A DNA stretch of 64,000 bases from Gracilaria domingensis (lineage: Eukaryota; Rhodophyta; Florideophyceae; Gracilariales; Gracilariaceae), in contig VCMS01000031.1 in NCBI GenBank assembly GCA_022539475.1, positions 225,826-289,825 of the forward strand. The letters run 5' to 3'. Positions 9,428 through 63,610 of the stretch are shown piece after piece (within the stretch, counting starts at the first letter, position 1; the number at the start of each line of letters is the position of its first letter). The translations under genes and the position numbers were made by a program. Below the pieces are notes generated by a model. The model was not told the DNA's origin, did not search any database, and saw only the letters and a program-made list of their open reading frames with translations.

Positions 9428-10023
9428 CTATCTGTGATATTGATTGCTCGGATTATCTACAACGTTAAGAGCGTGAGCAGTAGCGTCTAATAATGTAGCG
9501 AACACTCGAGCCGGCTCATCATGGCTTTGTTGGTTAGAAATAAACAATTTAGGACAATGAGAACCCACTGGGTTTCTGATTTCTGCACTCACTGCCAAGA
9601 ATTGGGATTCATTGCTAGTGGTTCGCTTTTGTTTCTTTGCGGTTGTTTTACACTCAGTAAGAGCAACGTCGTTCTCTAACACGTTCGTAACTGTGCATTG
9701 TAGACTCAGATACGATCCATCCTTGCTCATCCCGGCGCGCTTTGGCCATTAAGGCCGCCTTACAGCCACACCTTAGATGGGAATACTTGTATCTCAGACA
9801 GCGGATCCTGGCGTTAGGACGATATCGTTTCGGTTTCGTTACTTCTTACAAAATTAAACACCATACTCATGCCCGTTCTGTGCACATAATTCTGCAACGT
9901 AGTGAGATAGATCCCATATACTGAGCTCCTCTCTTTCAAACCCCGCTCTTCAACTTCCATGATCAAAACACAGTCCTCATTCTCGTATGTTCTCCTAGCG
10001 TGCTCTTTCTTCATGAAATTCAC
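9428..10023 (-). pseudogene. Unrecognised gene remnant
   Basis: Two minus-strand frames (9814-10,023 and 9428-9730) have protein-like composition, including a KTTAKKQKR basic patch and a C-terminal run rich in Ala, Val, Asn and Asp. They are in different frames, separated by stops. No family is recognised. They could be exons or a decayed gene, or chance. Confidence 0.25.
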
Positions 10024-10299
10024 TCTTCTATTCTGTCTCTTTGCACTTTTCTCTCCTTTTGATAATCGTGCATCGTAAAATGTGCCTTTCTAAACAATAG
10101 GATCATCAAGTAGCCTTGAAGAGCACAAAGTTTTTCGCGGCTTCAAACTGGAGTCCAACACGGCGCTCAAATTGCCTTATGCATTATAATTTCCATTCGA
10201 AGAGACGTTCTTCCCCAACACCGCATTGGGTACCAGCGAGATGCTGTCGCAGCGCGCAGGGCAGCACGGGCGACAACAGTAGCAGAAATAGGCGCATAG

Positions 10300-10620
10300 T
10301 CAAATGGCATTATGACAGAGAAGGAGGTTAGGGAGGAGGACGTTGGTGGTACTAGGGGCGATTACGGCGGTAGCGGCGACACGGCGGAGGCGGGAGACGA
10401 AGGCGGGGGGTGCTGGTGGTAAGGATCATGTAGTTCTAACAGAGCAGGAGGCAAAAGAGAAGGGCGGTGGCGGTGGTGATCGCGGCGGTAGCGGCACAAC
10501 AGCAGAGACGAGAGAGAGTGGCGTGTGGCGGTGGTGGCGTCGATCACGGTGGTAGCGGCAGCACCTCGAAACGAGAGGTGACTAGGAAAAGGGTAGTGAA
10601 GAAGTCGGGAGGAGCCGAAA
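10300..10620. repeat. G-rich imperfect GGC/GGT/GGA triplet repeat
   Basis: Low-complexity G-rich plus strand with repeated GGCGGTAGCGGC, GGTGGTGGCGG and AGACGAGAG words. The frames it opens on both strands are compositional artefacts and are not annotated as genes. Confidence 0.7.
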
Positions 10621-11668
10621 TATGACGGGGGATGTACAGGCAAAGCGAGCACAAGCGCGCGCAATTTTTGAACTTGAAGAGCTCGTAGGTCATGACATTG
10701 GGGAAGTGTGGCCGTCACGACCTTGTGGGGCGTGCAGCCAATAGGAGCGGTAGGAACACAGGGTTTGACGACGAGGAGAGGCCTGGGCGCAAGATAACGG
10801 ACCTAGAGAGTTACGGAGGGTGACAGAGGTTCTTGAAAGAAACTGTTTCAAAAGCATTTAGGTTCTGGGCTTCTAGTTCTACATACTCTACAGTGGGTAG
10901 ATTTGCCGCAACCCCCCCGCATCGATTCATGAGGGAAAACGGCGCTCCTGCGTTTTAAATTTCGGGTACGTGTAGATACACAGAATAATATTATCGCTCG
11001 CACGCGGGCGTGGGGGCGTGCGCGGCGACGACGGCGCAAAGACCACCATGGTTAACAAAGGCTGCCGCTACGCTGCTGTTGTCGAGACGCCTTGCAGAAT
11101 GCGCACATGGCATGCGCCGCGCCGAATGCAAGGCTGGCTGAAAGCCGCGCAGATTGCAACGCGCACAACCGCAAGCTCGAGCGCGTGCGCATGCATACGA
11201 CCGTGGTGCGCATGCGCACACGCACGAGCGGGCATGTGCTGGTGCTCGTACACGAGGTGCGCCTTAGGCCGTGGACGTGCGCGCGCACGGGTGCGGGCCA
11301 CGTCGCCCGCATCCGCACGCGCACACGGGCCCGCCGAGCTGCAGTCTGAAGCCTTTGCGTAGGTGGCGGGTGAATTATGCGCGATGGCACGTAACAGATG
11401 CGCGCCCGCCAGCGCGTGGAAGTGCGCGTAACTGGCGACTGCTTCCCGTCGTGGGTGCTCTGCGTCGGGCGGTTTGGAATATGTTGCGTTCCGCTGAGCT
11501 CATGAATTTTTGTTTGTTGCTGCTCGTAGTGGCACACTTTTTGGAGCGGTATTACGCCGATGCCAACGAGTCGATGCGAATCTCGCGGCTCTCGGGAGAG
11601 CCGTATCTGCCCTCGGTGACGCCTGTTCCGAGTGCCGCCGTCATGTGGCCACTCCGCTGCCGGACTAG
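10621..11668. other. GC-rich stretch with simple alternating purine-pyrimidine repeats
   Basis: From about 10,985 to 11,340 the sequence is dominated by GCGCAC/GTGCGC-like alternating runs that open frames in most directions (Arg/Ala/His-rich). I see no supportable gene. Such alternating runs can adopt Z-DNA. Confidence 0.5.
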
Positions 11669-11991
11669 CCGCCTTATGCTCTGCATACTTACGACTCGTT
11701 GCACCATGTCCCGACGCGGCTGCTTTCGGCGCACACCAACGTTGCGCTCTACTGCGCCGCCGAGCAGACGACCTCGCCTTACCGATCGTATGTGTGGGGC
11801 CTGCGCTGCGAGAACGTTCTGCTGGCCATGAGTGCGTTTTGTAAGGCACGAGACTAGCGCTGGATGCCGTTCGCCAAGGCGAGAAAGATCCGTCGCTGTC
11901 ACACTCGCGTTACCGGACGGCTGGCTTCAGGCGCGATTTTAAGGCGCCTTTTGGCTTCTACGACGACACCAGCGTCGCCATCGTGCGCTGA
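11669..11991 (+). pseudogene. C-terminal fragment of an unrecognised GC-rich gene
   Basis: An ATG-less frame from 11,669 to a TAG at 11,852-11,854 reads as ordinary folded protein (TRLLSAHTNVALYCAAEQTT, then SYVWGLRCENVLLAMSAFC). After a single frame change in the AAGGCACGAGA stretch it continues (RLALDAVRQGEKDPSLS, FRRDFKAPFGFYDDTSVAIV) to a TGA at 11,989-11,991. The amino-acid composition is far more protein-like than that of overlapping frames, so I treat this about 107-residue stretch as the real remnant. The family is not recognised. It may be the last exon of a lost gene. Confidence 0.4.
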
Positions 11992-12030
11992 ACCGAAATC
12001 GTCAGTCCAATGCGCAGAATGACTTCTCCA

Positions 12031-13890: not shown

Positions 13891-16790
13891 CTAATGAGGC
13901 CAACGGTCTTTCAAGTCGTCTTTTAAAGTGAAGTGCATGAACGTATGCGAGCGTCTGTAGTAGATCTCAACCACTAGACTGTCTTCTATCTGCATTTCAC
14001 AGGCAACATAGTAGCTTGCTCTTTCTCGTTTGGCTCGTAAACAGAGTGAGGATACCTTCATCAGCCCAGAAGCATTCTGCACAACGCCACCAGAATTGAA
14101 TCGCAGTCTAGGATAGAATGTGCAGAACGAGAATGTCTCAATAAGAAGGGATGCTTCAGTAGCTGAGAGACCTTCGTACTTTCGCCGAAGGTAACCGTGT
14201 AACAATCTCTTTAGCGATTGATCCTCCTCAGACTCATCATTTAATTCGTACTTATGTCCGGCACCTCGAAGCGCGTACCCATCTTCTCGGTTACGCTCAT
14301 CCCACTCAGGATCGTCTCCCGCAAATCCCACTTTGCAATAGGACTTGAAACTCTCGTAGGAGAGCGCTGACCGAAATAGAGACGACGTCGCATGTGTCCG
14401 AGCATTGAATCTTCCAAGAATCCAACCAATGTAACGCTCCATTCAATACTGAGAGTACAGTACTGGTGGTCCATTTGCTCTAACGCATTCCTTCAGATGT
14501 AGAATCAAGTGAATTACGTACTCCCACATGCTCACACACTCAAGTTCGTGCTGAAAGTAACCACGCTCAAAATGCTCATAGAAATCTATGCAATGATTTC
14601 CTAGCTCGTTCAAATTGGTCTCCATCAAAGATCCACGCCAGTACAAATTTACAATCTGAACCAGGTAGCTCCATCGAGATATGTACGGCTCACCAAGTAT
14701 CCCATCCAGTACGATTAGAATGTAATGTAGTATGAATGCTTTAACCTCTTCGGACTTCCATTCAGCAAATCGCGACATTGACCTTGGACGGGAACTCATC
14801 TGGTTCGGTATGCCGCTACCAAAGCTCTGCAGCTCACGGCAATCCTCTGTATGTGTAATGCTCTCAGATGGTATGGCTGACTGAGAGCACCGCACCATAA
14901 ACGAATGAAGTCTTTCCCAATATTGTAAAATAGGTGCATGACATCAATGGGGAAACAAGAGTAGGGCTCGAGATGTGATATTGAGAAAAGAACTGAACCT
15001 TCAGAAATTCCCGACTTCTTTTCTAGTTCCAATCTGTTGTTTCCTTGAACAGAATCCAATTACGATATAATCTCTAAGGTATCACTTGTATCACGTATGG
15101 GAAGTGCCTTGATATCGAACATGTTACAGAGTGACCCGTTGTTCATCTTGAACATGCTTGGATAGTAGTAGTGTCGGTGAGTGGGTGACCACACTCCTTT
15201 TATTTGACAGTACCTACAAGGAGCTTTTCCATTTTGACCTTTCAACACAGCGATCTTCTTCATTGCTGGGAGATCCCCGCCGAACCACAAGAGATGGACA
15301 CGCACACACCGTGAAGAAGCAGCAAAGAACATAAATTCGGTCCCTGAACCATCTTTGTTAATGGATTCAATTTCTCTTACAAGAGGATAGATAAAGTATT
15401 GTAAGTTCACTGACTCGCTTGGACCAGGAATAAATCCCATCGGAAGAACGTTCTTCACTGAAAGGCGCTTGTGCGGAGGTAGATTGCAAAAGAGAACTGC
15501 AATGGGCCACACGTCGTAAGATCGCTTTCGAATAGCTGGAAATCCATCACATGATAGCTTGATACACACGTCATTGCTCAACTCGGAGTGGCCCCCAAAT
15601 CTGTCAAATAACCGTTGGTATACTTGTCCAACAAAGAAGTCCTTGTATGTCTCAGTCGTGCAGTGATCCCAAGGCTGCGTGTACGAAAACAACTCTTCGC
15701 ATCTATCTTTGTCTAGGAATATATCACGGAGCCTAGGTGCCAGCTTCATCCAGCAAAAATATAGATCAGGACTTTGAACAGTCTCAAGAGGACGCAGCTT
15801 TCCACACACTGAGCATTCAGTGTGGTGTGGATCAGAGAAACACATGTGCCCCGGACATATGAAAAACTTCTCTAGGGTTTCTTCTATTCCGGAGTCCTTC
15901 TGAAGTCTATACAAAACTGTCTTCCAACTACGATAAAGCGCCCTGATTACCTGGAGAATGTCATCCATAACTGCTCGTGTTAATCCGTTCTTGAAGTAGA
16001 TCTCCACCCAATCCTTGTTTGCGTTCATCCAAAAACGGAAGGCTTGAGACGGACCTGAGGTAGATTGAAGCCGGCAAAATTGAGATTGAGAGCTCTGAAA
16101 ATCGTCCGTTCCCGCCTCGGTATATTCCTGGTGACAACTAAGGGCGGATGCCTGTTCAAGGCTTTCGAGGAAAATACTCATTGGGTGAGAAAGCGTGGTT
16201 GTATGCGATGTAGTAGAAGGACTTTGGGGCGACCCATTGAAAATGACATTGATTAGGGGCTTTTCGTGCTCAGCCAAGGAGGAATTCTACAGGTTCTGTG
16301 TAATCAAATCCTGACTGCCTTGGGGCTGATTCAGAAAATTAATGCTATGTTCTGGACTTGAGGACGGTGAATGGAAAGATGTAACCGGCTCTGCATTTTC
16401 TGCGACAGCGGGAGATGTTGAGGAGGTCATCCCAGTTGCGAGAGATGGTAACGGGGGTCCGGAGACGTCCTCAGTTTGTGCGGTATGGTCTTGAAGATGG
16501 GCGTCGTTAGCAGAATAGTTATGAGATGATACGTTGTTCTCCTTTTCTAAATCAGGAGCAGATTTCCGTGAAGCAAGCAGAATCTGCTGAACAGAATCTC
16601 TATATAATCTTCCGTATTCTTCCCTTACATTTTGACTTCGTGCAAAGGTAGGTCCCCATTTCAGATCCGCACGATACCCATCACGCACTCTCTGTTTGTT
16701 CGCAATTCTTCGATGATTAAGCATTGTGCTGCGACTTACTGCTTTTCCCTTTGGGTAGCAGGAACACTCATACTGTGGCGAACACACATA
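13891..16790 (-). pseudogene. Element B: tnp2-family (CACTA/EnSpm) transposase, broken
   Basis: About 966 codons of a transposase family tnp2 protein. The N-terminal zinc-binding start (ECSCYPKGKAVSRSTMLNHR) lies near 16,760. A disordered linker runs to 16,290. The core has CPGHMCFSDPHHTECSVCG near 15,830, LSCDGFPAIRKRSYDVWPI near 15,540, a NLPPHKR block, GFIPGPSESVNL, and GDLPAMKKIAVLKGQNGKAP followed by CRYCQ near 15,240. Then come PIDVMHLFYNIGKDFI near 14,930, EWKSEEVKAFILHYI near 14,750, and a C-terminal part to 13,891. Residues Asp of CDGF, Asp of GDLPA and the later acidic positions fit a DDE-type core. Breaks: in-frame stops at 16,287-16,289, 15,060-15,062 (TAA) and 14,443-14,445 (TGA), plus a frame change in 14,800-14,900. 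It is divergent from the accessory frame at 17,122. Not functional as read. Confidence 0.85.
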
Positions 16791-47929: not shown

Positions 47930-48560
47930 ATGCTCCCAAATATCCGTCGTCCTGTCGCGCCCTGCCGGTATCCACTCCTCAGCCATCTCCATTGCCTTTA
48001 TCGCTACGTAAGCTCCCATTGCGTGGCCGTCACCACGGCCACGACAGCCACCGAAGCTACTTCCATCGCGCCCTACCGGCGTCCGCTCCCAGTCTTATCC
48101 ATTGCTTTTGTCTCTCCCTGCGCTCCTACCGTGACGCCGTCACCACATCCACTTCTGTCGTGTGCCGTGCTCTGCTGTGACGCCCTCCACTCATCAACCT
48201 CAGACATATCCGTTGCCTTCATCGCGCCGTTGGGCCCTGCCAGTGCCCTACCGGTGTCCGCCGCCAGCCAAATCCATTGCCCTTGTCCCTCCCTGCTCTC
48301 CTAAAATGCCCCCGTCACCACATCTACTTCCATCGTATGCCATGCTCTGCCGTCACGCCCTCCCGTCATCAACCTCAGACATATCCCTCGCCTTCCTCGC
48401 GTCGTGGTGCCCTCCCGGCGTCCACGCTCCAGCCATAAACATTGCTTTTGTCGCTCCCTTCGCTCCCATTGCCTGGCTGTCACCACAGCGACCACAGCCA
48501 TTGCCACCGCATCCTGTGCTGCCGTCGCGCGCTGGCTCCTCTTATGCCCTCCTACTGTTG
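47930..48560. repeat. C-rich minisatellite-like repeat, copy 2
   Basis: Units begin GTCACCAC at 48,029, 48,136, 48,314 and 48,479. The 48,136 and 48,314 units (about 178 bp apart) align along their whole length: CCGTGCTCTGC/CCATGCTCTGC, CATCAACCTCAGACATATCC, TCGCG. The same words occur at 42,180-42,650. Confidence 0.7.
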
Positions 48561-51549: not shown

Positions 51550-51554
51550 AAGAT
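51550..51554. repeat. Target-site duplication AAGAT (left)
   Basis: AAGAT immediately precedes the left LTR (TGTGAG) and recurs right after the right LTR at 63,606-63,610. A perfect 5-bp duplication is the usual product of Gypsy integrase and fixes both element ends. Confidence 0.9.
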
Positions 51555-52135
51555 TGTGAGATAGCGCCGTCAGGCGAAAGAGTCCTAGAGGCGCGATCCG
51601 TGAACGGTTCGTAAGCGGGGCGTGTAGTCCCGTGATCCGGTCGGTTGTAGAGTGTGACGCGTGGAAATGATCGCCAGCACCGGGCGGTCGTAGGAAGACT
51701 GGGCGGTTGGGTACGTCAGGCGCGGTCGAGAAACGCGCGTTGAGTCCGAACGGCTTGGAAACCTAATTGTTGTCCGTCGCGGTCTAGTCGCAGGTCTGAC
51801 TTAGCGAAAAGATAGTTCAGGACGGTGGTGCTTACCCTTTACTAGTTGGGTGTACGGGAGGAGCGGAGGTGCATAAGTAGCACCTCGACGCTGCAACTCA
51901 CCGCGTACAGTCCGAATCGGCACCCTGCTCGCATGGCGAAAATATCCAGAGGTGGAGCGGGTGCCATCTATCTACAACTATGCTACGTGTAATTCCTATC
52001 GTACGAGTCCGCACGGTGTGCCATATCGGCGCATGTGGGACACTTCGCGTTTCCCGACAGCTTCTGACGCACCCCTTCTTACCTGCCATACCGATCGGAT
52101 CACCCATACAACAACGCTGACCTCACTATACTACA
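51555..52135 (-). repeat. LTR (3' LTR relative to gag-pol)
   Basis: 581 bp, starting TG and ending CA. It matches 63,025-63,605 with about 13 substitutions and no indel (about 97.8% identity by eye), so the insertion is not recent. On the plus strand it leads into the antisense frame at 52,342, so it could also serve as that gene's promoter. Confidence 0.95.
51866..51886. promoter_or_regulatory. LTR hairpin with TATA-like loop (left LTR)
   Basis: GAGGTGC-ATAAGTA-GCACCTC: a perfect 7-bp inverted repeat around an AT-rich heptamer in otherwise GC-rich LTR sequence, conserved in both LTRs. A possible core promoter or RNA structure readable on either strand. Confidence 0.4.
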
Positions 52136-52136
52136 G

Positions 52137-52148
52137 ACCCCCCTCCTA
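52137..52148 (-). other. Polypurine tract
   Basis: On the minus strand this reads AGGAGGGGGGT, ending 1-2 nt before the 3' LTR. That is the expected place and composition for the plus-strand DNA primer of a Gypsy element. Confidence 0.8.
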
Positions 52149-52341
52149 GAGCGCGCGACGTCCACGGCTCGCCCAATCGAGGACTGGCGACATATGCTGT
52201 AAATTAAATCCGGCTTTCTTGAGCATTGGCTGCGGTTCCGATCGGTAGTCCAGTACGCCGTACGCCTGTCCGACCGTAACGCCCTCCTTGTTAGTTCCGC
52301 TCCCTCGCGCGCGATGCTTCGCACTGTACGGCATATGAGAG

Positions 52342-55272
52342 ATGAAGTCTCCAACCGGGAGTAAAGCCGTACATCCACAATCAGCACCGCCGACCGAGAC
52401 CGGGCGGGAGAGTGCACAGGTCCTTATCGACCTCACGAGCGAGATCGACGATTACACTACCTCGCAACCCGAAGCGGGATCCATCCTATACCTTCCTGCG
52501 GACGCCAACATGACTAATCAACCGAGCGGGAATCGAAATGCGTCGGAGAATCCGAACGGCTACCATCCGAGTGGTAACATGGGCGGTGTTCCCATCCCGC
52601 GTCGCAGCGCCCCTCTTCCGCCTGGTCCTTTAGTTCCTCCGCAGTTCGGGAACCCCAACCTTTTTGGAGCAACGTTCGGGCAAATGTTCGTGCCAGCGTA
52701 TCCGCAGACAGCGCCTTTGATGCCTACTTACGGTCAGGCTCCTCCGAACGAGTTCCAGCAGCCTCCGGTGATGCAAACGTTCACTCCGACGAACATGATG
52801 TCTAACCCGATCGGTGCAGTTCAGCCAGTGCCTCATACTGGCACCAACTTACCAGCCGTATTTCAGAGTTCACTTCCGGGTCAGCAATTCGACCACCGTC
52901 TGAACCGTACACGGAATAAGGCGAAGACACCGAGCCAGGGAAAGCAGCCACCGTATACGGTAGAGGAGTACCTTGCAAACGACGCCCTTAACGGATATCT
53001 GGACGCCCGTCGTTTCGCCGCAGTTCCTGCACATCGTTCCTTTCAGGAGCGAACCGGTCGGAATCCGAAGCGGACGAGAATGGAAGCGTGGCAGGCGAGG
53101 TGGAGGCACCTTCCGGGAATAACCGGTCGGAGCGAAGAAAGCACCGTCGGCAGTTGCGATATGCCGTTTCTCCCTTGCCCGGAGGAGTATGATTACCAAG
53201 GCCGAATGCGGAGCTTGGTGACGTGTATGCTTTCCGATGAGAACGAACCAAATCCGAACGGTAATCCTCTCGAAATGGTAATGCTCCAGCCGCCGTAGGG
53301 TAAATTATACTTTCTAAACCGGCGTCGTTGGGGCGACAACGCTGCTACGGAGGCAAGAATCCGTTCGAGTTTGGGCGGATATATGCACGGTTGGCATAAC
53401 GTTGAGTTCTTCGACATTGCGCCATCCGAGCGGGAGAACTTCTACGTGAAGATACCGGAGAATTGGGCCGATCTGGATGCTCCACGCAACCTCTCCGTTA
53501 TCACTCCACCAGTCCTGGCATATTACTCAGATGACGTGCTGAGCGACAGCACGATTTCCGAGCGGATTATGAGGATTGCGTACACCGAGTGGGTAGTGTG
53601 CGTTCTCATGGCGTTTCTACAGGCCGCGACGGAAGGGGTGAGAGCTTTCACGAAGACGGAGGACCCGCGTTTGAACTTCTTTCGGGGCTTCCCCGGTCAG
53701 CCAGGAAGTCACGAACCGTCGGGGCTTGGTCGGCTCTTTCCTCTTCCGTACGGGTTGGTTAGTGTATTGATGCAGATGGGCCTGCAGAACCTACTCAGAG
53801 GTACGGAGTTTACGGTTCCGTCGGTCAAGAAGTGGCTGTTTCTTTCGGTCATGACGGACTGGTCAGATACGCCCGGCTTTCTGTGGTTCAATCCTCACTC
53901 AGGGCAGTTTCCCCCGATGCCGGTCAACGCTGCAGGAGCCCCTGCGATCGTTCAACGCCTGCTGCCTGAGTCCGCACGGCCGTTATGGGAATTCTCCGAG
54001 GTAGAGGATTTTTATCCGCTCCGTTTCATGGATCCTAACAAGCCCGAGGTCGAAGAGAATGTCGAGAGGGTTCCGTCCAAAGGTCTGGGCCGGATCCTAC
54101 CCTCTGCTACATCCAAGGAGGCTGGGGTGCAGACTGATCCGATCGGTGCGGAAGAGAATACTGCTCTCTTGCGATTGCAAGAGATCTGTCGCGATGCGGA
54201 TGAGGGGGCCCCGACGTCGGTGTTGGATGCTTTGAACTGTGCCGAGAGGTGGATAACGCGGCTCGTCTTGTTGGAAAGATTTGTCCAAGTCGACCACGAT
54301 GGCCTTCTTGACGTCATAATCTTCATGACCGGTATGGCGCACCACCTGATAGGTCGTTACACACACGTACTTCACGACGTTCCGGTCGGTCCGCACAGAC
54401 TGAGGTTGGGAGAGTTGCTTTAGAGATACAACCACACCGCATCGGAGGTAAACCTTGCGCATCAACGAAGCCGCGAATGGTACAAAAACGTCCGTACAGC
54501 ATTGAATAATATTGCTCCAGATGTTCCGCTCGGCATGGAAGCGTCGGCCGCGATGGCGGCGATAACTGCCACCGGGTTACATCAACCCGCTGCTACGAGT
54601 TCGGCACCGTTGGCGCCTCACGCGTCGGTCTCGCCAGCTGTTCCGAGCGGTAGTTCTGCGCCGCCCGTACAGTCTGTCGCAGTTCCCCTGGCTTTCATCT
54701 CAGTTGGTATACCCGTTCCAGTGACTTCCGCGTCAACTACCGTACCAGCCGCGTCATCCCAGGTGCCTACAACTAGTCATCTGAACGGTTTCCGCGCTGG
54801 TACCCTCGTTCGGCGTACGACACCCACACCGTCGGATGCGGTTCCGCCCGGTGGTGACATCTTCCCGCCATCGAGACTCACTCCGTCCGGGCAGTTGAAG
54901 GAATCTGGGAGCTCCGCGTTGCCGAGCGGGTCCGCAGGCCCGACGCACACGTCTGGGATCGCAACTTTGGCCGGACAGGGCCCCTCGGCGTCATCCAGAG
55001 GAACGCTGGCCAGTAGTGAGGCGCAAGGAGGGCGACGACTCGTGCATGCGCGTGTGGGGTACAGCCTTTTCCAGCCGAGTAGTTCCAGTCGGGGTTCGGG
55101 CTCTGCGTCGCAAGCACTGCCGCGAGGTCATACCATGGTGGCGGCGTCTGGCGCAAGCAGTAGTCGTTGCCCCCGTGGCGGTCGTGGTTCTCGCGGCGGT
55201 CGCGGTGGTACGCCTGGGGTCCGTGGCGGCATCTCAAAGACGCTCCCCACACCTGGGAAGCGCATCCGGTAG
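52342..55272 (+). pseudogene. Antisense gene inside the Gypsy element; one long frame with two TAG codons
   Basis: From ATG 52,342 to TAG 55,270-55,272 one frame runs 976 codons with only two stops, both TAG (53,296-53,298 and 54,421-54,423). Sequence between and around them reads on without a break. Residues 1-200 are Pro/Gly/Asn-rich, with a SUMO-interaction-like VLIDLTSEIDD at 27-37. A basic segment follows (RLNRTRNKAKTPSQGKQPP, then RTGRNPKRTRMEAWQARWRH). The middle part (about 320-690) looks globular: SLGGYMHGWHNVEFFDIAPS, EWVVCVLMAFLQAATEGVRA, and an amphipathic stretch near WITRLVLLERFVQVDHDGLL. The last about 250 residues are Ser/Ala/Pro/Thr-rich and end in an RGG box (RGGRGSRGGRGG). 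I recognise no family. Extra antisense frames are known in some plant Gypsy lineages (Ogre/Tat). Either the stops are point mutations in a once-intact gene, or TAG is read through. Confidence 0.7.
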
Positions 55273-56527
55273 CGGACTTGTTACCGCGCCCATACGGCGT
55301 CATTCAATAAAGATCAGTGTTTTTGTGGTGGCCATGATTGCATCTCCGAGCGGCACTTAGACTTCCGGAAACGGCCCATGGTGTGGGAAGCGGTAGCGCT
55401 CTCCGAGTGCACACAACTCCGCGGGCAACAACGCGGAGAGCACGCTCGCCGTCCGTGCGGTGTGTCGCGCGTGCCGGCAGGCGGCGCAATCCGAAAATTT
55501 CGGTATTAACCCCGGTCGGAGTGCATGCGCGCCACACGTTGTTGAGTAGCCGATTCAGTATACATTATTGCACGTAATGTCGTGCACGTGGAAGCCAAAA
55601 AATTTCTAAGTATTTGACCGTACGGAGAGTGCAAATCGGCCATTTTCAGCCCCTGAAACGCCGCCGTTCCGGAGATACGAGCCAAACACTGCATCGGCGT
55701 TTTTGAACCAGTACGGGCAGGCAATTTCCGCATCGATTTATTTGATTCGCCTTGCAAGTAACCGTGCGCTGCGGCGTCGCGCGCTCGCCGTATACCGTCG
55801 TAGGGAGTATGCAGTGCGCTCGAATTGCGCAGCGCTGTACTCCGTGTACGCGTGGGTTCCAGCGCAGCTCCTTGTGCCGCTATTCCGTTCGTTACTTGAG
55901 CGTTAGAGAGACGGGGTGTCCCCGAACTTTGGCGTAGTTCCTGCCGATCGGTGCTTGTTCAACGCAGGGCGTGTGGGTACACAGAGCCGTGCGGTGTTGC
56001 CACCGGGACCATATCTCCACGGAGGGGCGTTCAAGAAACGTCTACGGAGCCGTGCGGTGTGTCAAGCCCGGGAAGAGCGGGGGGAGACTATGTCAGTTCC
56101 CATACGGAGGACATACTACATAGTAAACCCGCGCGTTGACTCCACTCCTCCTGACGTCCGTGCCGTTCTGTAGTTTACAAAGTTAGCTCAGTAAGCGCCG
56201 TGCGGAATTGTCGAGAGTACCGAACATCCATTCGAAGTCGGTGCCATCTGAAAACCTCGGTGCGGCTTCACGGCGTTCCTAGCAAGCCTAGGAGGGCATA
56301 ACAAACCGTTCGGAGTTCTAGCCCCGTCCGGGGCGGGAAGAAACTCTGCCCAATTTCCGCGCGGGTTCCTTAATGGTTGAGGAGGTCCGTACGGTTGCTT
56401 GGACGAGACTAGTCTGTGCGTGAGATAGATGTTAGAATGTCAGTAGTTAGCCGAGATTCCCTCTCTTCCAGAGCGCTAACGCTCGGAGCTGCAAAAGAAA
56501 GAGAAGGCAGTGATCCCCCCTCCTGCA
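55273..56527. other. Convergent spacer between antisense gene and integrase
   Basis: No frame longer than about 100 codons on either strand. It contains many CCGNNCGG palindromes, with CCGTGCGGTGT/CCGTGCGGAAT words repeated (55,448, 55,987, 56,048 and 56,199). It must hold the 3' end of the plus-strand transcript. Confidence 0.5.
55306..55311 (+). terminator. AATAAA polyadenylation signal of antisense gene
   Basis: AATAAA lies 34 nt after the stop codon of the antisense frame and is followed by a TGTTTTTGTGG (U/GU-rich) stretch, the usual arrangement of a eukaryotic poly(A) site. Confidence 0.5.
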
Positions 56528-57802
56528 TTAAGGCGACTCCGTTCGGCTTACGCGCTTCCAGTATCGCGCAAGGAAGTGCTGCGGGATGTTTTCCGGCGGT
56601 TCCCAGGAGTCACCTGCAGCACCGTATCCATACCACCGCACGCGGTAAACCATTCCGTGCGGAGGATCGTCAGCAATCCCGTGAGCGAGAATTTTGTCGA
56701 CGATCCCGGTAGTATCCGAGAGGTGTCCTGTAGAGTCAGAAGCTCCAGTGAGAGTGTTAGTCTGGTCCGAAACGGGCTCGTCAGCATCAGGGCCTTCCGG
56801 GTCGGCTTGTACGCCGCGCTGTCGTTCGGTTGTCACTGGTTGGGACCGGTTCCGAGCGGGAGCCAGGGTGACACGGTCAATGCTGACAGCATCGTGTATA
56901 CCGTCCACATCGATTGTCACCGTATCGTTCGTAGCGGAGACAACCTTGTAGGGCCCTGCTCTCTTTGGCAACAGCTTCCACGACGTACGCTTATGCTCTT
57001 CGAGAACGCCTCGGGTCGGAGTAGTCTTAGGACGGTCAAGGAAAACTTCCTCTCCCGCAGTGAAACGTGGAGTCACCCGTACAGCTTTGTCGAAGTTCTC
57101 CTTATACCTGCGTTGTGCGTTTGTGAGACGGTTCCGCGCGGATTGAAGCGTAGCCTTTACAAGGCGTAGTGTGTAACGCTTCATCTGACCTGGGGTAGGT
57201 TGCGTCGGCGTAGCAGGATCCGTAGCGGAGCTTGGCTCGTTTAGAACAACATTCGGCGGAACACGGGTTAGCGCCAAGTCGAATGGTGTGGTGCCCGTGC
57301 TTCGGTGAACCTGTAGATTGTATTCGTACGTAAGCGGTTGTACGTATGCGTGCCAGTTCGACTGGTGATCCGCAACGTAATGTCGCAAGCGTTGTAGTAG
57401 CGTACGATTGAACCGCTCGGCCTGGCCATTCGTCTGCGGATGGTATGCCGTTGTTGTGACGTGTTTTGTACCCAGCGAGCGACATACTTCCTCGAAGAAC
57501 TTCGCGACGAATTGAGGGCCGTTATCGGTGAGTAGGTAGTTAGGGATCCCGTACGGATAGACCCAGTTCTCCAGAAATCTTTTGGCCACAACTGGAGCAG
57601 TGGTAGACCGTAGCGGGATAGCTCTGCAGAGCTTCGTGAACCGGTCGGTGATCCCCAAAATGTATTCAGCCCCATTCACGGACTTCGGAAAAGGACCGAC
57701 AATGTCCATAGCCACGAACTCGAGTGAGCCCGTTGCCGGAAGAGCTTCAGTCTTTTCTGAAAACGGTGTCGTGTGCCGCGGATAGCAGCGCACGAGCGGC
57801 AA
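56528..57802 (-). CDS. Integrase catalytic core, C-terminus and chromodomain (pol, third frame segment)
   Basis: Frame of 424 codons continuing the polyprotein after a -1 frame change at about 57,755. The real junction is FQKRLKLF in the RT frame followed by PATGSLEFVAMDIVGPFPKS here. DDE core: Asp in AMDIVGPF, Asp in LLTDNGPQF, Glu in TTAYHPQTNGQAERFNRTLL. Next come a basic region and the SH3-like GEEVFLDRP/KRAGPYKVVSATNDT part. At the end is a chromodomain: IVDKILAHGIADDPPHGMVY, then RVRWYGYGAAGDSWEPPENI. Chromodomains steer chromovirus integration to particular chromatin. All catalytic residues are present. Stop at 56,528. Confidence 0.9.
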   Translation of the reverse strand: MPLVRCYPRHTTPFSEKTEALPATGSLEFVAMDIVGPFPKSVNGAEYILGITDRFTKLCRAIPLRSTTAPVVAKRFLENWVYPYGIPNYLLTDNGPQFVAKFFEEVCRSLGTKHVTTTAYHPQTNGQAERFNRTLLQRLRHYVADHQSNWHAYVQPLTYEYNLQVHRSTGTTPFDLALTRVPPNVVLNEPSSATDPATPTQPTPGQMKRYTLRLVKATLQSARNRLTNAQRRYKENFDKAVRVTPRFTAGEEVFLDRPKTTPTRGVLEEHKRTSWKLLPKRAGPYKVVSATNDTVTIDVDGIHDAVSIDRVTLAPARNRSQPVTTERQRGVQADPEGPDADEPVSDQTNTLTGASDSTGHLSDTTGIVDKILAHGIADDPPHGMVYRVRWYGYGAAGDSWEPPENIPQHFLARYWKRVSRTESP

Positions 57803-59709
57803 TCTCGAACGGTTTGGTATACATCATGGGCCATCTGTGGCCAGTAGAAGTCCCTGCGGAGAGTGTTGTACATACGGGTTCCGCCCGGGTGTCCTTCCAA
57901 ACGCGGATAGTGCGATAGATAGAGCACGCGCGGAACAAGGGAGCGAGGCACTACCTTCTGTAGTGCTCCGTCCAGGGGGGAGTGGCGATTAAGTACTCCG
58001 TGGCGGTTAACGTCGAAGAGGGTAATGCCGTTACCCACTTCTTTCCGTACAGACTTGCAGTACTCATCCTCAGCCTGAGCTCGAATGAGCTCTTCCAGAG
58101 TAACCAGTTGGACTTCCGTTTCCTCTTCTACAATAGCCATAACCTCCGGGCATCCGATCGGTGCGCTCTCGTCGCACCAGTCAATAGCGACGTCCTTCAA
58201 GACCTCGCCGTCAACTAAGAAGTCTGCTATCGGGTCTTTGTCATCTTCTGCTCGGTCCTCAACCAAGAGGCAGGGAACCTCTTCGTCAAGAGGTGTCTGG
58301 TCCTCTCCGTCCGTTTGGATGCGTGATAGCGCATCGGGGGCCCGGTTTTTTATGCCCGGTCGGTGTACGATATCGAAGTCGTACTCCATCAGACGGAGTC
58401 GCCAGCGAGCGAGCCGTCCAGAGGCGTCCGCCAGGTTGAGTATCCACCTCAGCGCATGGTGATCTTTTCGGAGGGTGAACCTGCCCATCTCCAGGTACGG
58501 TCGAAGGTGCAGTATTGCCCACAATACAGCGAGGCATTCCCGTTCGGTTGTAGAGTAAGCCCGTTCGGCTTTCGTCAATGAGCGACTCCAGTATCCGATT
58601 GGGAGAAGATCACCGTCCGGTTGCTTCTGTAACAAGACGCATCCGACTTGTTTGTCGCAATCGTCGGTATCCAGAACGTACGGCATATCCGGGCGTGGAA
58701 TAGCCAGGATAGGAGGCCGTATTAGCCGGCTGCGGAGCTCATCAAATGCTTCATATTCCGTATCGTTCAGTGTCTCGAAGTTGACCGGTTGGCTTTTCTC
58801 GAGTTTGCGGTTCAGAGGACCCGCAATTCGGGCACAGTTCTGCACGAAGCGTCGGAAGACGTTGCAGAGTCCCAAGAACGACCGGAGCTCTGTTTGGTTG
58901 GTGGGTGGTTTAGCCGCATGGATAGCATCTTGAGTCTTCGTAGAGACCTGTAGCTTTCCTGGACGGATAACGGGGCCCAAGTAATCTACAGTACCACTAA
59001 AGAAGTAGCACTTATCCAGACGTAGAGTTATTCCAGCCGATCGGAGGAGTGATAAGATAGTCCGAACATGGTCGTAATGTTCAGCGACCGTACGGGAGTA
59101 GATGATAACGTCGTCGAGATAGACCAACGCGTACTGCCATTTCACACGACACAGTATGATATCCAGCGCTCTCCAAAAAGTCGCTGGTGCGTTCTTCAAC
59201 CCGAACGGCATTCGGGTATACCGATACAGTCCCATGTGGGAGGTAAACGTCGTCTTATTCCGGTCGGCTTCATCCACTTCGGTTTGCCAATATCCGCTGT
59301 TGGCATCCACGGTGGAGAATATCTTCGCGTCCCCCAGTGAATCGATACACTCTTTCATTCTCGGTAACGGATAAGTGTCCCGAACGGTAACTGCGTTAAG
59401 ACGGCGGTAATCCACACAGAAGCGGAGGCTGCCGTCTTTCTTTTGAGCGAACACGACCGGGCTAGCCCACTCGGCCGATGAGGGCTCAACTACACCCATC
59501 TCCAGCTGCTTGCTGACCTCCTTGCGTTCAAGTTCGCGACGTGCAGGACCCGCTCGGTATGGCATCTGGTAGATAGGTTTCGTACCAGGTTCCAATTGGA
59601 TGCGGTGCTTCGCGGCATCGATACGGCCTAAGTGGCCGTCCCACATATCTTGAAACGGTCTGAGCAGCTCGATAACCTTATCCTGTTCGGATCGGAACTC
59701 GGAAGACAA
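57676..59709 (-). CDS. Reverse transcriptase, RNase H and integrase zinc domain (pol, second frame segment)
   Basis: Coding really begins near 59,815, just after a TAA in this frame. It is joined to the protease frame by a -1 change at the GGGGCCCC run (59,805-59,815). RT motifs: LRFCVDYRRLNAVTVRDTYP near 59,420, STVDANSGYWQTEVDEADRN near 59,300, FTSHMGLYRYTRMPFGLKNA near 59,220, and the catalytic LVYLDDVIIYS near 59,120. RNase H: LDTDDCDKQVGCVLLQ near 58,660, TERECLAVLWAI near 58,530, and RKDHHALRW (family: TDHHAL) near 58,460. The integrase HHCC finger lies at about 57,900-57,790 (HPGGTRMYNTL, YWPQM, VRDCRSCA). The last 26 or so codons are out of frame. Confidence 0.93.
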   Translation of the reverse strand: MSSEFRSEQDKVIELLRPFQDMWDGHLGRIDAAKHRIQLEPGTKPIYQMPYRAGPARRELERKEVSKQLEMGVVEPSSAEWASPVVFAQKKDGSLRFCVDYRRLNAVTVRDTYPLPRMKECIDSLGDAKIFSTVDANSGYWQTEVDEADRNKTTFTSHMGLYRYTRMPFGLKNAPATFWRALDIILCRVKWQYALVYLDDVIIYSRTVAEHYDHVRTILSLLRSAGITLRLDKCYFFSGTVDYLGPVIRPGKLQVSTKTQDAIHAAKPPTNQTELRSFLGLCNVFRRFVQNCARIAGPLNRKLEKSQPVNFETLNDTEYEAFDELRSRLIRPPILAIPRPDMPYVLDTDDCDKQVGCVLLQKQPDGDLLPIGYWSRSLTKAERAYSTTERECLAVLWAILHLRPYLEMGRFTLRKDHHALRWILNLADASGRLARWRLRLMEYDFDIVHRPGIKNRAPDALSRIQTDGEDQTPLDEEVPCLLVEDRAEDDKDPIADFLVDGEVLKDVAIDWCDESAPIGCPEVMAIVEEETEVQLVTLEELIRAQAEDEYCKSVRKEVGNGITLFDVNRHGVLNRHSPLDGALQKVVPRSLVPRVLYLSHYPRLEGHPGGTRMYNTLRRDFYWPQMAHDVYQTVRDCRSCAAIRGTRHRFQKRLKLFRQRAHSSSWLWTLSVLFRSP

Positions 59710-60712
59710 CTGTACCTTTGAGGTCCAATCCTCTTCAATGCTCGTCGGTGGCTTCTGCCCGGCTGGGTCATCCGTGTCCGCATCCGGAAAAGACTCGGAG
59801 TTGGGGCCCCTTCCTTAGTTTCGTCGCTCCGAGACGAAAATAGCGGAGATATCACAGCGATTGGAGATGGAAGGGCAAGTCCCACGATGATGCCTTTATG
59901 TAGGCGTACCGGACGGTCGGAAAAGCTAGCCACCTGAACATAGAAAGGAGTATCCGGTCGGAGTTCCATTACACCATTAACAAGGAGAGTGAGCTCTTCT
60001 TTGTGTGCCGTGCGGTGATTTTCTTGAATAAACATGAGACCTGCGGCCTTGGAGGTTACCAGGACGTGAGATTTCGACATCGGGGGTATCATTATCCGGC
60101 GGGCAACGCGAATTTTGTTTGAAGGCGTTGACCGGTCGGTAGTTGGAGTAAGGTTCTGAGGATATCCGGGCGGAGTTGTACTTTGTCCAGACGCGGATTG
60201 AATTGCCACTGGATGTGAGTGGCGTAGCACGACAGTCCGTTTTGGAGGTAGTATCGCCAAAACATATCTGTCGATAAACGAGGTACCGAGGATGCAGCTG
60301 GCCGCAAGGTTACTTGCTACCAAGAACGGTACCAGTACGTGCAGAGCTCCAATTTGTACCAGAAGAGGAACAACACCCAGAATATCCATCCGATTACGAG
60401 AGGCATCCGTAATGTTCTTGACCTTTCGGGGTTGTAAGTGTGCCTTCCAGCGCGGCGGGAGATGCCGCTCATGAATGAGATTTGGGCCAGCGCCAGTGTC
60501 GAGAACGCCCGTAAGTGGATACATTACCGATCGGAAAAAGCCGACGGAGAAATTCACTTTATAATGAACGTGCTCATCAACATAACTGGCGTGGCCGACT
60601 CATACTCATCCAAAGCGTGTAAAAGCGACTGCTCGTCCAGATCGGAGGCAGGATCCGTACAGTCCACTTCGGTGAGGCGCTTCGGCCCTGGAGGACGGTG
60701 CGCCTCTACGCG
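59628..60712 (-). CDS. Protease segment (pol, first frame segments)
   Basis: The main frame starts at 60,557. It carries an aspartic protease with GVLDTGAGPNLI (D-T/S-G active site) near 60,500 and ILGTSFIDRYV near 60,270. Residues GVVPLLVQIGALHVLVPFLV lie between, as in retroviral-type proteases. Upstream, 60,712-60,557 reads in another frame as an acidic linker (GRVEAHRPPGPKRLTEVDCT, then DPASDLDEQSLLHALDEYES) that ends at a TGA exactly where the protease frame takes over. Gag to linker, linker to protease, and protease to RT each need a -1 change. The protease frame itself runs on to 59,628, overlapping RT. Confidence 0.85.
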
Positions 60713-62949
60713 CCCTCCGTTCCGGTTTCCTGCTCCACTGCAGCGTTCTCTCCAACAACCATGACCGGTCGGGGGGCAACAGTGCGTCCCGCAAGAGCAG
60801 CGCGGACGGGAGTGGCCGAACGTACACCACTAGATATCCGAGTGGAGCCGTCACGGTTATAGTAACCCTCCTCCCGACGGAGGTGGTAGTTCTTCTCCCG
60901 TGCGGCAAGCAGAGCTTCACGAACACCGGGCGGGATCATCTTGCAATGGTCCGGTTCCCTGGAAAGGCAAATCCGACACGGGCGATCCATCAGGCGTCCT
61001 TGAGACTGCGCTGGCTGCTCAGCCGTTTGGGGCATAATGGCAGTTGCCGTGTTGTATGAGTCCGACCGCGAATAATTTGAAGGTGACGACGGCGTTGTCG
61101 GCACCGACGGAGCGGAGCTACCTTGCCCGAATGCAAGTACTGCTTCACCATCGTCCGAGTCGGTGGCGAAAGATTCCGTTTCGGTGTTCTGCATGCTCAG
61201 GATCTTCCGTCCCATGGAGCGGTTTGCTGCTGCCTTAGTTCCAGACGGACGCAACGTTGGCGTGTCAACCCGAACGGATTGACGTTTCGCCGAACGGTGC
61301 GTGTCGCCGTATGACTCGGCGTACCTCGCGAGCGCTTCATATCCAATAGACGGATGCGTCGTGAGATGGTTACGCACCTTCGCCCGTATGGAAGGCAGTA
61401 ACCCCTCCACAAAGAGGGACTTCAATCTCCGATCGGAGAAGAAATTGCCGCAGCGGAGAGCCTTCGTCCACAGTTTCTGAGAGTATTCCGTTTCAGACAT
61501 CTCAGAAGATTGGCGGTACAGAGTGACATCCGCATAGGCGTCAGCAATGACTTCATTCGTAGCGTACGTAGTCAACAAGAAGTTGACAACCTCCGAGTAC
61601 GTACGGAGCATCTCACCCCGACGTACATCAACGGCGCCCGTTTCTCCCAGGAGCCTAGACTGGATCAAAGCATGAGCCGGTCCGGTCAGGTAGAATTGGA
61701 AGCACCAAAGTGCTGCTCCCTCGGACAGTCCGTTGTGGTTGCAAGCGGTCTTGAACCGTTGCAGAAAGTTCAGGACTGATATAGAATCCGCCCCGGAGAA
61801 GGAAAGTCCCTTCATCTGGACATACAACTTCTTCTGGTGGCGCCCAATCTTGCGCGCTACCCTCGCATTGTACCGGTGACTGCGGTTGTCCAACCGATAC
61901 CTACGGTACTCCACCACCTTGATGAACAGTTCGTTCAGCGGTCTGATGCGCCTGGGCGCAGCCTTCTTCGAGCGGGAACGATGCCGATCGGAGCGGCGTT
62001 TGCGATCAGAACGGTCCGAGTCCTCGTCACTGTCAGTTCTGGAAACGGCATCAGAACTATCCGAGCGGTCAGAATCAGTATCCGAATCGGAAGAGCGTCG
62101 TTTCTGTCTACGACGACGTCGGTTCTTCCGGGCGCGGGGTCGATCCGAACCAGAGGAACCATCAGCTCTACCGCCCTTCTTGCGGCGGCCTTTTCTCTCG
62201 TCTTGAGAAGAGTCGTCTGAATCTCCGTTCGGGTCATCTCGATGAGGAACCGCCGGGAGGACAGGAGCCATGGGGGCACTCTGCTGGCCCTCTTCTGGGT
62301 GCGGCTCATTGTTCCGCTCGGCGGGTAAGTAGCCAGCGGCTAAGTCCGGTCGGCCAAGCAAAGACTTGGAAAGGGGTGGCAACGTTGCCGTTGCCGTGTA
62401 AACTGCCGGTTGGCCTTCCTGATCACCTTCGCCAAATCCGATCGGTATCAACTGTTGTATAATCGCCTCGGCAGTCTGGCGGACTGTCGGGGTGATTACT
62501 TCGGTCAACAACTCCGGAAGGCGTTCAAGAAGATAACGCTCAACCCGAACGGGAACGCGAGCTTCGATCTCGTTCTTCAGCTTGTAATGCCAGTAAGGCT
62601 CAAGCTGCTTCCACAGTTCTGGAAGAGTCTTCGGTGTACGTTCCGAAGCGTTCTGTCCGGTTGGAACAGAGAGTTGCGGAAGCGACTCTGCTCCGTCCCA
62701 ACTAACTGGAGCTTCATTATTCCGGTCGGAAGAAGCGGCGGTGGCCCTAGAGGGACTCGAGGACTTGCGCAAAAGTACCTCGGGGTTCTCCAGGCGGAAA
62801 TCGGGGGCAGGTGCAGTGCCACGGGCACTCCGGCGGCGAACCGAAGCGGTATCCGAAGCGGTCTGCGGAGGAGGCTCGACGGACTGAGCCAATTCTTTTT
62901 CGACATCAACCCTTACGGTCGGTTCCACAGTTGCGTCACGTGCATTCAT
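60706..62949 (-). CDS. Gag polyprotein
   Basis: The first ATG in frame is 62,949 (747 codons; stop TAG 60,706-60,708). The N-terminal part is acidic and disordered. Residues about 110-170 are a helical region (LPELWKQLEPYWHYKLKNEI). A long Arg/Ser/Asp-rich RS-like stretch (RPRARKNRRRRRQKRRSSDS) covers about 270-345. The retrotransposon gag (capsid) domain runs from about 385 to 560: LSFSGADSISVLNFLQRFKT, GAALWCFQFYLTGPAHALI, and ETEYSQKLWTKALRCGNFFS. Near the end RPCRICLSREPDHC could be a reduced zinc knuckle (C-x2-C-x6-H-x-C, not the standard C-x2-C-x4-H-x4-C). Intact reading frame. Confidence 0.9.
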   Translation of the reverse strand: MNARDATVEPTVRVDVEKELAQSVEPPPQTASDTASVRRRSARGTAPAPDFRLENPEVLLRKSSSPSRATAASSDRNNEAPVSWDGAESLPQLSVPTGQNASERTPKTLPELWKQLEPYWHYKLKNEIEARVPVRVERYLLERLPELLTEVITPTVRQTAEAIIQQLIPIGFGEGDQEGQPAVYTATATLPPLSKSLLGRPDLAAGYLPAERNNEPHPEEGQQSAPMAPVLPAVPHRDDPNGDSDDSSQDERKGRRKKGGRADGSSGSDRPRARKNRRRRRQKRRSSDSDTDSDRSDSSDAVSRTDSDEDSDRSDRKRRSDRHRSRSKKAAPRRIRPLNELFIKVVEYRRYRLDNRSHRYNARVARKIGRHQKKLYVQMKGLSFSGADSISVLNFLQRFKTACNHNGLSEGAALWCFQFYLTGPAHALIQSRLLGETGAVDVRRGEMLRTYSEVVNFLLTTYATNEVIADAYADVTLYRQSSEMSETEYSQKLWTKALRCGNFFSDRRLKSLFVEGLLPSIRAKVRNHLTTHPSIGYEALARYAESYGDTHRSAKRQSVRVDTPTLRPSGTKAAANRSMGRKILSMQNTETESFATDSDDGEAVLAFGQGSSAPSVPTTPSSPSNYSRSDSYNTATAIMPQTAEQPAQSQGRLMDRPCRICLSREPDHCKMIPPGVREALLAAREKNYHLRREEGYYNRDGSTRISSGVRSATPVRAALAGRTVAPRPVMVVGENAAVEQETGTEGA

Positions 62950-63004
62950 CACGAGATATCTTCGTCAGCTCTGTTGGTACTCCATACGGAAAACACGAAT
63001 CCCA

Positions 63005-63023
63005 CTTCTAGGTCGGGAGACCA
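63005..63023 (-). other. Primer-binding site
   Basis: On the minus strand, TGGTCTCCCGACCTAGAAG begins one nucleotide after the 5' LTR. TGG complements a tRNA CCA end. The matching tRNA would end ...GGTCGGGAGACCA; its identity was not determined. Confidence 0.65.
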
Positions 63024-63024
63024 A

Positions 63025-63605
63025 TGTGAGATAGCGCCGTCAGGCGAAAGAGTCCTAGAGGCGCGATCCGTGAACGGTTCGTAAGCGGGGCGTGTAGTCC
63101 CGTGATCCGGTCGGTTGTAGAGTGTGACGCGTGATAATGATCGCCAGCACCGGGCGGTCGTAGGAAGACAGGGCGGTTGGGCATGTCAGGCGCGGTCGAG
63201 AAACGCGCGTTGAGTCCGAACGGCTTGGAAACCTAATAGTTGTCCGTCGCGGTCTAGTCGCAGGTATGACTTAGCGAAAAGATAGTTCAGGACGGTGGTG
63301 CTTACCCTTTACGAGTTGGGTGTACGGGAGGAGCGGAGGTGCATAAGTAGCACCTCGACGCTGCAACTCACCACGTACAGTCCGAATCGGCACCCTGCTC
63401 ACATGGCGAAAATATCCAGAGGTGGAGCGGGTGCCATCTGTCTACAACTATGCTACGTGTAATTCCTATCGTACAAGTCCGCACGGTGTGCCATATCGGC
63501 GCATGTGGGACACTTCGCGTTTCCCGAAAGCTTCTGACGCACCCCTTCTTACCTGCCATACCGATCGGATCACCCATACAACAACGCTGACCTCACTATA
63601 CTACA
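63025..63605 (-). repeat. LTR (5' LTR relative to gag-pol)
   Basis: 581 bp, TG...CA, partner of 51,555-52,135. About 13 mismatches, mostly transitions and a few clustered pairs (for example around 63,133 and 63,182). Drives gag-pol on the minus strand. Confidence 0.95.
63336..63356. promoter_or_regulatory. LTR hairpin with TATA-like loop (right LTR)
   Basis: Identical to 51,866-51,886: GAGGTGC-ATAAGTA-GCACCTC. Unchanged although the LTRs have diverged by 13 sites. Confidence 0.4.
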
Positions 63606-63610
63606 AAGAT
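63606..63610. repeat. Target-site duplication AAGAT (right)
   Basis: Copy of 51,550-51,554, directly adjoining the CA end of the right LTR. Confidence 0.9.

Follow-up and report, generated by a model that had tools for sequence, protein, structure and literature searches.

VANDAL elements are Mutator-like DNA transposons that carry a transposase. One of the VANC proteins, VANC21, is described as binding the motif YAGTATTAY, present at high density, both in vitro and in vivo; the VANDAL motifs are reported to lie mainly in non-coding DNA, often as tandem repeats, and VANC proteins to carry DUF1985/DUF287 domains (PMC5735166). Retand is described as having an antisense open reading frame (ORF) between pol and the 3′ long terminal repeat (LTR), with a predicted DNA-binding product of unknown role, and the antisense ORFs of Retand-type non-chromoviruses as mostly carrying a TRP28 domain (PMC11963269). 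Here, we analyse a complete Ty3/gypsy LTR retrotransposon of 12,051 bp from the red alga Gracilaria domingensis, which occupies positions 51555-63605, with minus-strand sense, of a 64,000-nucleotide stretch (contig VCMS01000031.1, positions 225,826 to 289,825; the window hereafter). Its entire length, genes included, is set with the dyad CCG-N2-CGG.

The element is not a VANDAL, but functionally it appears to work most like the VANDAL/VANC system as presented in PMC5735166 and PMC10398659. The likeness lies in a dense, short, family-specific motif that differs between related families and turns over between close relatives, and in a fast-evolving element-encoded protein as the candidate reader of that motif. 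The present element differs in being an LTR retrotransposon with a gypsy pol rather than a DNA transposon, and its antisense protein, the candidate reader, is without DUF1985/DUF287 in the window pieces and in eight relatives. With Retand, it shares an antisense gene in the interval between pol and the 3′ LTR (52339-55272, on the plus strand, versus pol on the minus strand); it differs in that a chromodomain is present, and in that TRP28 (PF04195) was not found in the antisense protein. As in chromoviruses, there are a protease, reverse transcriptase (RT)-RNase H, an integrase, a chromodomain, LTRs, and a 5-bp target duplication, whereas the antisense gene and the lineage-specific dyad arrays set the element apart; we know of no described chromovirus with both. 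Some single-stranded RNA viruses have dispersed packaging signals, stem-loops that are bound by coat protein. The array resembles these in consisting of many similar short sites over coding and non-coding parts of the genome, in sense orientation, and differs in that our folding predictions gave no stem-loop signal. No such element was described in the titles and abstract openings of the open-licence literature searched.

A Spacing-Specific Dyad Array Covers the Whole Element

The element contains 80 CCG-N2-CGG sites in positions 51637-63598, and the same 80 within its LTR-bounded limits. A preliminary description of the locus had counted about 78 sites and expected 3-5. The excess is real, but that expectation was too low: Markov models of orders 1-3 gave 7.1, 10.9, and 10.6 sites (300 simulations each, maximum 22), and half-site frequencies predict 10.4, an ~8-fold excess. 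When the spacer in CCG-Nx-CGG was varied from 0 to 8, the counts in 51637-63598 were 2, 11, 80, 28, 15, 6, 5, 11, and 6. The excess is therefore spacing-specific, with its maximum at N2 and a lesser rise at N3, as had been proposed; N4 stands at 15-16, depending on the limits used, and counts beyond it are near background save for single values, e.g., 15 at N12.

Sites were counted in every part of the element, LTRs, spacer, sense genes, and antisense gene alike, which bears out the spread originally described. Gag-pol holds 39 of them (6.1 per kb), the antisense gene 18 (6.1 per kb), the spacer between antisense gene and pol 12 (9.6 per kb), the left LTR with the leader six (7.7 per kb), and the right end five. 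ORFs contain 57 of the 80, and the coding sequence of both strands is overlain. The sites use all three reading phases in gag, protease, RT, and integrase, two phases in pieces 1 and 2 of the antisense gene, and one in piece 3. Tandem Repeats Finder listed no array within the element. With several reading phases in use and no tandem array, simple-sequence expansion is not the cause, again in agreement with the preliminary description. Site spacing is more even than random (coefficient of variation (CV) 0.74 versus 0.93, P 0.013). The CV was likewise below random in the A2, B, and D sets of related elements introduced below, with single-set P values of 0.002 to 0.19, while lineage E sites were not evenly spaced (P 0.78 and 0.89).

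The excess persists when coding capacity is held constant. Codon shuffling of each gene piece gave means of 0.7-3.0 sites versus 5-14 observed, and six of the seven pieces had more sites than any of their 1000 shuffles, while piece 3 of the antisense gene equalled the highest shuffled count. A stricter shuffle that preserved protein, codons, and dinucleotides failed to reproduce the count: the seven ORF pieces together contain 57 sites versus a mean of 17.4 (standard deviation 3.2, maximum 27 in 200 shuffles). In this test, six of the seven pieces were above all 200 shuffles, while piece 1 of the antisense gene was matched by five of the 200.

The remaining 52 kb of the window (GC content 47% versus 56% in the element) contain five CCG-N2-CGG sites, and no comparable dyad excess was found there; the sole 2-kb block outside the element with a higher GC content (positions 10001-12000, 57.7%) has one site. 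This block contains 203 CpG in 2 kb, and its surroundings outside the element have 40-52% GC. The array is genuine and unusual, and it is broader than the preliminary description stated; its reader and purpose are what we infer below.

Related Lineages Carry Different Dyads of One Build

Relatives were collected by an RT protein search of the 77.9-Mb genome, in which the best 63 of 2988 candidates were scored. That the genome is most likely red algal is borne out by 14 matches to the phycobilisome linker domain, four on contig C680, probably the plastid genome, and ten spread over eight further contigs. An oomycete host, considered at first, was rejected on this account; the elicitin domain gave no match, and none in the control genomes either. 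Thirty pol loci were compared; one is the window copy, one is identical to it, and others are mutually close. Lineages E, F1, and F2 are represented by one locus each, and D by two. In 28 of 28 pol loci with RT identity of at least 70%, N2 was the commonest of 13 spacings (12-49 sites per ~5 kb). Among antisense-gene loci of A type, N2 was the peak in 10 of 10, one of them a tie.

A different picture was seen in more distant lineages. The two pol loci of clade D (RT identity 63%) have two and zero CCG-N2-CGG sites; instead, CCC-N3-GGG occurs 23 and 20 times versus 2.8 and 2.2 expected, and CCC-N4-GGG 21 and 16 times. Codon shuffling of clade D RT gave CC-N5-GG counts of 35 versus 16.8 and 34 versus 16.9 (z 5.8 and 5.3), although in RT alone no single trimer palindrome cleared the multiple-test line. 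The same test applied to lineage E pol (L063) revealed 75 CC-N3-GG versus 38.4 and 63 CC-N4-GG versus 29.9, with A/T-rich inner bases. In F1, the first antisense gene of locus L064 has 12 ACC-N4-GGT versus 2.3, and in F2, the pol part of that locus has 13 CCG-N7-CGG versus 2.5 and six CCA-N6-TGG versus 0.7. CCG-N2-CGG itself is near chance in the E and F loci (5 versus 2.9 and 9 versus 8.2). Two other ORFs of the window, subjected to the same test, showed no dyad excess. Locus L064 contains two antisense-gene relatives in tandem (L064:912-3737 and L064:4504-5883), which apparently belong to two elements and differ in their dyads. What the lineages have in common is the CC-spacer-GG build; the spacer and the inner bases are particular to each lineage. 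This variation of the dyad on a shared plan among related lineages is the larger point, which the preliminary description had missed.

Sites Are Retained and Gained by Base Changes

Retention was followed in 5-kb pol loci, A1 being the lineage of the window element, and the average over CCG-type spacings of 5-30 served as the control. Between A1 and A2, which are 85% identical, 29 N2 sites are shared, three are found in A1 only, and 19 in A2 only; the control spacings average 1.5 shared and 1.3 and 2.1 lineage-only. Expressed as retention, 29 of 32 alignable A1 sites are present in A2 versus ~54% for controls. Between A1 and B (63% identical), 13 sites are shared, and 20 and nine are lineage-only (control 0.27, 2.35, and 2.85), so that 13 of 33 A1 sites are retained in B versus ~10% for controls.

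The lineage differences in sites are base changes. Of the 19 A2 sites absent from A1, 18 are alignable in A3, where eight are present. At the eight A2-only sites that lie within RT, there are five synonymous and five non-synonymous differences, versus 163 and 90 overall; although the numbers are small, gains are thus not limited to silent positions. From these patterns, we read the sites as lineage-specific self-recognition tags under selection.

The Antisense Protein as a Candidate Reader

A search for homologues of the antisense gene gave 111 matches, down to 30% identity. By contig position, some of them adjoin RT matches that belong to lineages A, B, D, and E. The protein was found in A, B, E, and F sequences and, by position, beside some D copies; RT loci on C12, C165, and C227 are among several that have no antisense match among the matches listed. 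Open antisense frames of 775-942 amino acids are present in a number of relatives. The gene diverges fast. Between A1 and A2, RT synonymous divergence (dS) is 0.43, while the antisense genes (L037, L039) are synonymous-saturated and their products are 60% identical. This saturation is seen amid LTRs that are 89-90% and pol sequences that are 85-88% identical (L037, L039, L004, L007), which suggests module exchange.

The best explanation we can offer is that the array is a lineage-specific self-recognition tag that the antisense protein reads on DNA, with an anti-silencing outcome. The tag would be gained and maintained by selection over the entire element, genes included. An element-encoded protein would read it, likeliest the fast-diverging antisense product, which, by analogy with VANC, may bind DNA of the element itself, which offers a site about every 150 bp. 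Such binding would keep copies of the family accessible and expressed, and the host genome would be ignored. In the red alga Cyanidioschyzon, H3K27me3 (trimethylated histone H3 lysine 27) is reported to mark transposable elements, which become expressed when E(z) is lost (PMC13353863). The silencing to be opposed might accordingly be expected, in red algae, to be histone-based (H3K27me3) and not to involve C5 methylation. A search of the 77.9-Mb assembly for a C5 DNA methyltransferase domain (PF00145) found none, whereas matches were obtained in 10 of the 14 control genomes, all of them listed as prokaryotes. A 5-methylcytosine context for the sites, one form of the methylation or modification context that the preliminary description had considered, is therefore unlikely. 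A reader of the fungal zinc-cluster type (PF00172) was tried as well and gave no match in the genome, yet the control genomes gave none either.

What the sequences show directly is a spacing-specific array that is retained and turns over between lineages and gives way to other CC-spacer-GG dyads in some of them. We infer each of four steps here: that a protein reads the array, that it is the antisense product, that it acts at the level of DNA, and that it counteracts silencing. Taken together, they make a possible account, which we are somewhat more inclined to doubt than to accept in this full form. A more general formulation, to which we would give only a little less than an even chance, is a self-identity code: each lineage would write its own spaced CC...GG dyad about every 80-200 bp through genes and LTRs, and a lineage-diverging element protein would discriminate the lineage's own copies from the host and from rival lineages.

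Several observations weigh against the antisense protein as a DNA-level reader. In VANDALs, the motifs are mainly non-coding and often tandem, whereas here the spaced dyads lie in coding and non-coding DNA with no tandem repeats. No Pfam family was found in the three antisense pieces of the window, and none in eight relatives except a weak DUF883 in one (E 0.29); a comparison with PDB sequences gave nothing better than E 0.15. Structure models were of low confidence (mean predicted local distance difference test score, pLDDT, of 53 and 44), and Foldseek found no match below E 3.9 for the first of them. These searches thus revealed no DNA-binding domain in this protein. Further, A1 and A2 share a motif despite their diverged antisense genes, so that motif and protein do not change in step there. 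Among the 20 antisense loci of B type, the peak is at N3 in 17, tied between N3 and N4 in one, at N4 in one, and at N2 in one, and codon shuffling of the lineage B gene revealed no N2 excess but an excess of CC-N5-GG and CC-N6-GG (z 4.9 and 3.5). The lineage E antisense gene (L063:5699-8044) has 16 CC-N3-GG versus 14.6, without the excess of its pol. The lineage B result slightly lowered our confidence in the antisense protein as the reader and slightly raised that in reading at the RNA level. Retention, too, is uneven. From A1 to A3, it is weaker (18 of 30 versus ~44% for controls), and within B/C, in RT alone, it is seven of 10 versus 65% (L015 to L026) and five of 10 versus 32% (L015 to L029). 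The conservation across copies that the preliminary description had named as support is above control between A1, A2, and B, but the excess inside B/C is small.

Strand Asymmetry and Other Explanations of the Array

The main alternative is that the sites are dispersed RNA packaging or assembly signals bound by Gag, whose coevolution with them made the motif lineage-specific. It is suggested by the central dinucleotide of the sites. On the sense strand, among 75 A1 sites (one LTR omitted), AC occurs 13 times and GT never, and CA seven times versus TG twice, in a dinucleotide background of 855 AC and 637 GT. The AC:GT ratio is likewise 10:0 in A2, 3:0 in B, and 10:0 in three C-type loci; the counts of these sets and of A1 are not independent of one another. 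This bias, a further point against reading of DNA, suggests that the site has an orientation and may be recognised in RNA; binding by a symmetric DNA dimer would not require it. A fully symmetric palindrome is accordingly rejected in part. The preliminary description had taken the variable central NN as a sign of a dimeric protein; the core is indeed palindromic, but the asymmetry of NN weakens the case for a symmetric dimer. Inner G is also rare in the A sets, at 8-13% versus 23-24% in controls (A1: G 10%, C 26%; controls 24% and 29%). The strand bias is the best argument for reading of RNA, which it makes a serious rival.

The asymmetry is not uniform. A combined test of G versus C at inner and flanking positions was significant in one of 11 sets only (A1, P 0.0014; P 0.095-0.91 in the other ten), AA/TT and GA/TC showed no consistent strand bias, and the D and E sets showed little bias. 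Nor did predicted folding of the RNA around 74 A1 sense sites reveal a structured signal: there was no mini-hairpin excess (0.108 versus 0.104 in shuffles), and the core was no more open than in shuffles (unpaired 0.29 versus 0.33). Extension of the stem at positions -1/+1 was below expectation (14 versus 19.6 in A1). The central NN was predicted to be more open, at 0.535 versus 0.433 in shuffles, or versus 0.494 when the shuffles kept NN.

Gag itself offers a candidate. The stretch at its C-terminus, CRICL...HC in the window copy and CRICL...CC in lineages B and D, is present in translations of L004 (A1), L015 (B), and L031 (D), and is possibly a zinc-binding nucleocapsid-like unit; against this, L005 reads CRISL, and the A2 and A3 loci hold only part of the motif in frame. 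That site density varies little along the full RNA (6.1-9.6 per kb) is also consistent with reading by Gag, as are the constancy of the motif between A1 and A2 while the antisense gene was exchanged or diverged strongly, and the B and E antisense genes, which are poorer in the lineage motif than pol. On balance, we consider the RNA-level alternative unlikely, if substantially less so than those that follow.

A host transcription or chromatin factor could also read the sites, different lineages exploiting different factors. Retrotransposons are commonly bound by host factors, and nothing in the data marks the reader as element-encoded. However, the five dyads share one CC-spacer-GG build, which argues for a single family of readers that diversified along with the elements. 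The sites extend over genes instead of being confined to the LTR, and no excess is seen in the window's host DNA; we regard host reading as improbable.

Plant LTR retrotransposons reportedly target palindromes and other elements (PMC6911290), and the sites might then be integration targets through which copies nest in their own family. The window element was inserted at AAGAT, outside the motif; there is no CCG-N2-CGG in ~390 bp of right flank and 1 kb of left flank, and no motif was seen by eye in 45-base stretches at the junctions of two further copies. With these three insertions all pointing the same way, an integration target is very improbable. Finally, composition, codon usage, or repeat expansion without function, to which the raised GC content (56%) and common CCG/CGG trimers might point, is scarcely credible given the spacing-specific excess over codon and dinucleotide shuffles, between-lineage retention above control spacings, no listed tandem repeats, and the use of several reading phases.

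Implications of the Proposed Self-Recognition

The likeliest reader, in our view, is the antisense protein, acting like VANC. To our knowledge, the array would be the first whole-body tag known in an LTR retrotransposon, and one made by point mutation under protein-coding constraint. If true, VANC-like sequence-specific self-recognition would have arisen also in retrotransposons, far from land plants. One genome would then offer about five natural dyad variants, differing in spacer length and inner bases, together with candidate readers, which would allow direct tests of how a protein and its target coevolve. Should the reader instead be Gag acting on RNA, a retrotransposon with lineage-specific signals dispersed along its full length would still appear to be new.

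Anatomy of the Element and Neighbouring Features

The coordinates of the element and its parts are listed in Table 1. RVP, RVT_1, RT_RNaseH, Integrase_H2C2, and rve are all above the Pfam cut-offs and follow the gypsy order, and the chromodomain (PF00385) at the C-terminus of the integrase scored 30 bits (E 4.8e-07) versus a cut-off of 25.1. With LTRs, a target duplication, this pol order, and the chromodomain all found, the element is a Ty3/gypsy retrotransposon of chromovirus type.

Table 1. Features of the Ty3/gypsy element and its dyad array (window coordinates; aORF, antisense ORF).
Feature	Position	Strand	Remarks
Left target-site duplication AAGAT	51550..51554	.	Read from sequence; identical five bases at 63606-63610
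3′ LTR, TG...CA, 581 bp	51555..52135	-	97.8% identity to 5′ LTR; 5 motif sites
Antisense gene (aORF), pol/3′ LTR interval	52339..55272	+	No Pfam family; 18 motif sites
aORF pieces 1-3	52339-53298, 53299-54423, 54424-55272	+	Single frame, split by two in-frame stops
Antisense gene/pol spacer	55273..56527	.	12 motif sites, 9.6 per kb
Integrase core PF00665 and C-terminal chromodomain PF00385	56528..57823	-	7 motif sites
Reverse transcriptase, RNase H, integrase zinc-binding domain	57676..59814	-	12 motif sites
Aspartic protease PF00077	59628..60599	-	6 motif sites
gag-like ORF, 752 amino acids, C-terminal CRICL...HC	60706..62964	-	Without Pfam match; 14 motif sites
5′ LTR, 581 bp	63025..63605	-	5 motif sites
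Right target-site duplication AAGAT	63606..63610	.	Read from sequence
CCG-N2-CGG array, 80 sites	51637..63568	.	Mean start-to-start distance 151 bp

The ORFs of gag, protease, RT, and integrase are separate from one another, and the antisense frame is interrupted by two in-frame stops; longer open frames are present in relatives. The window copy is probably not intact.

Elsewhere in the window, two tandem repeats were observed outside the element, one with a 41-bp unit in 2.8 copies (2655-2767) and one with a 175-bp unit in two copies with 82% matches (48070-48413). A fragment of a tnp2-type transposase (Transposase_21, E 8e-11) is located at positions 15063-16277.

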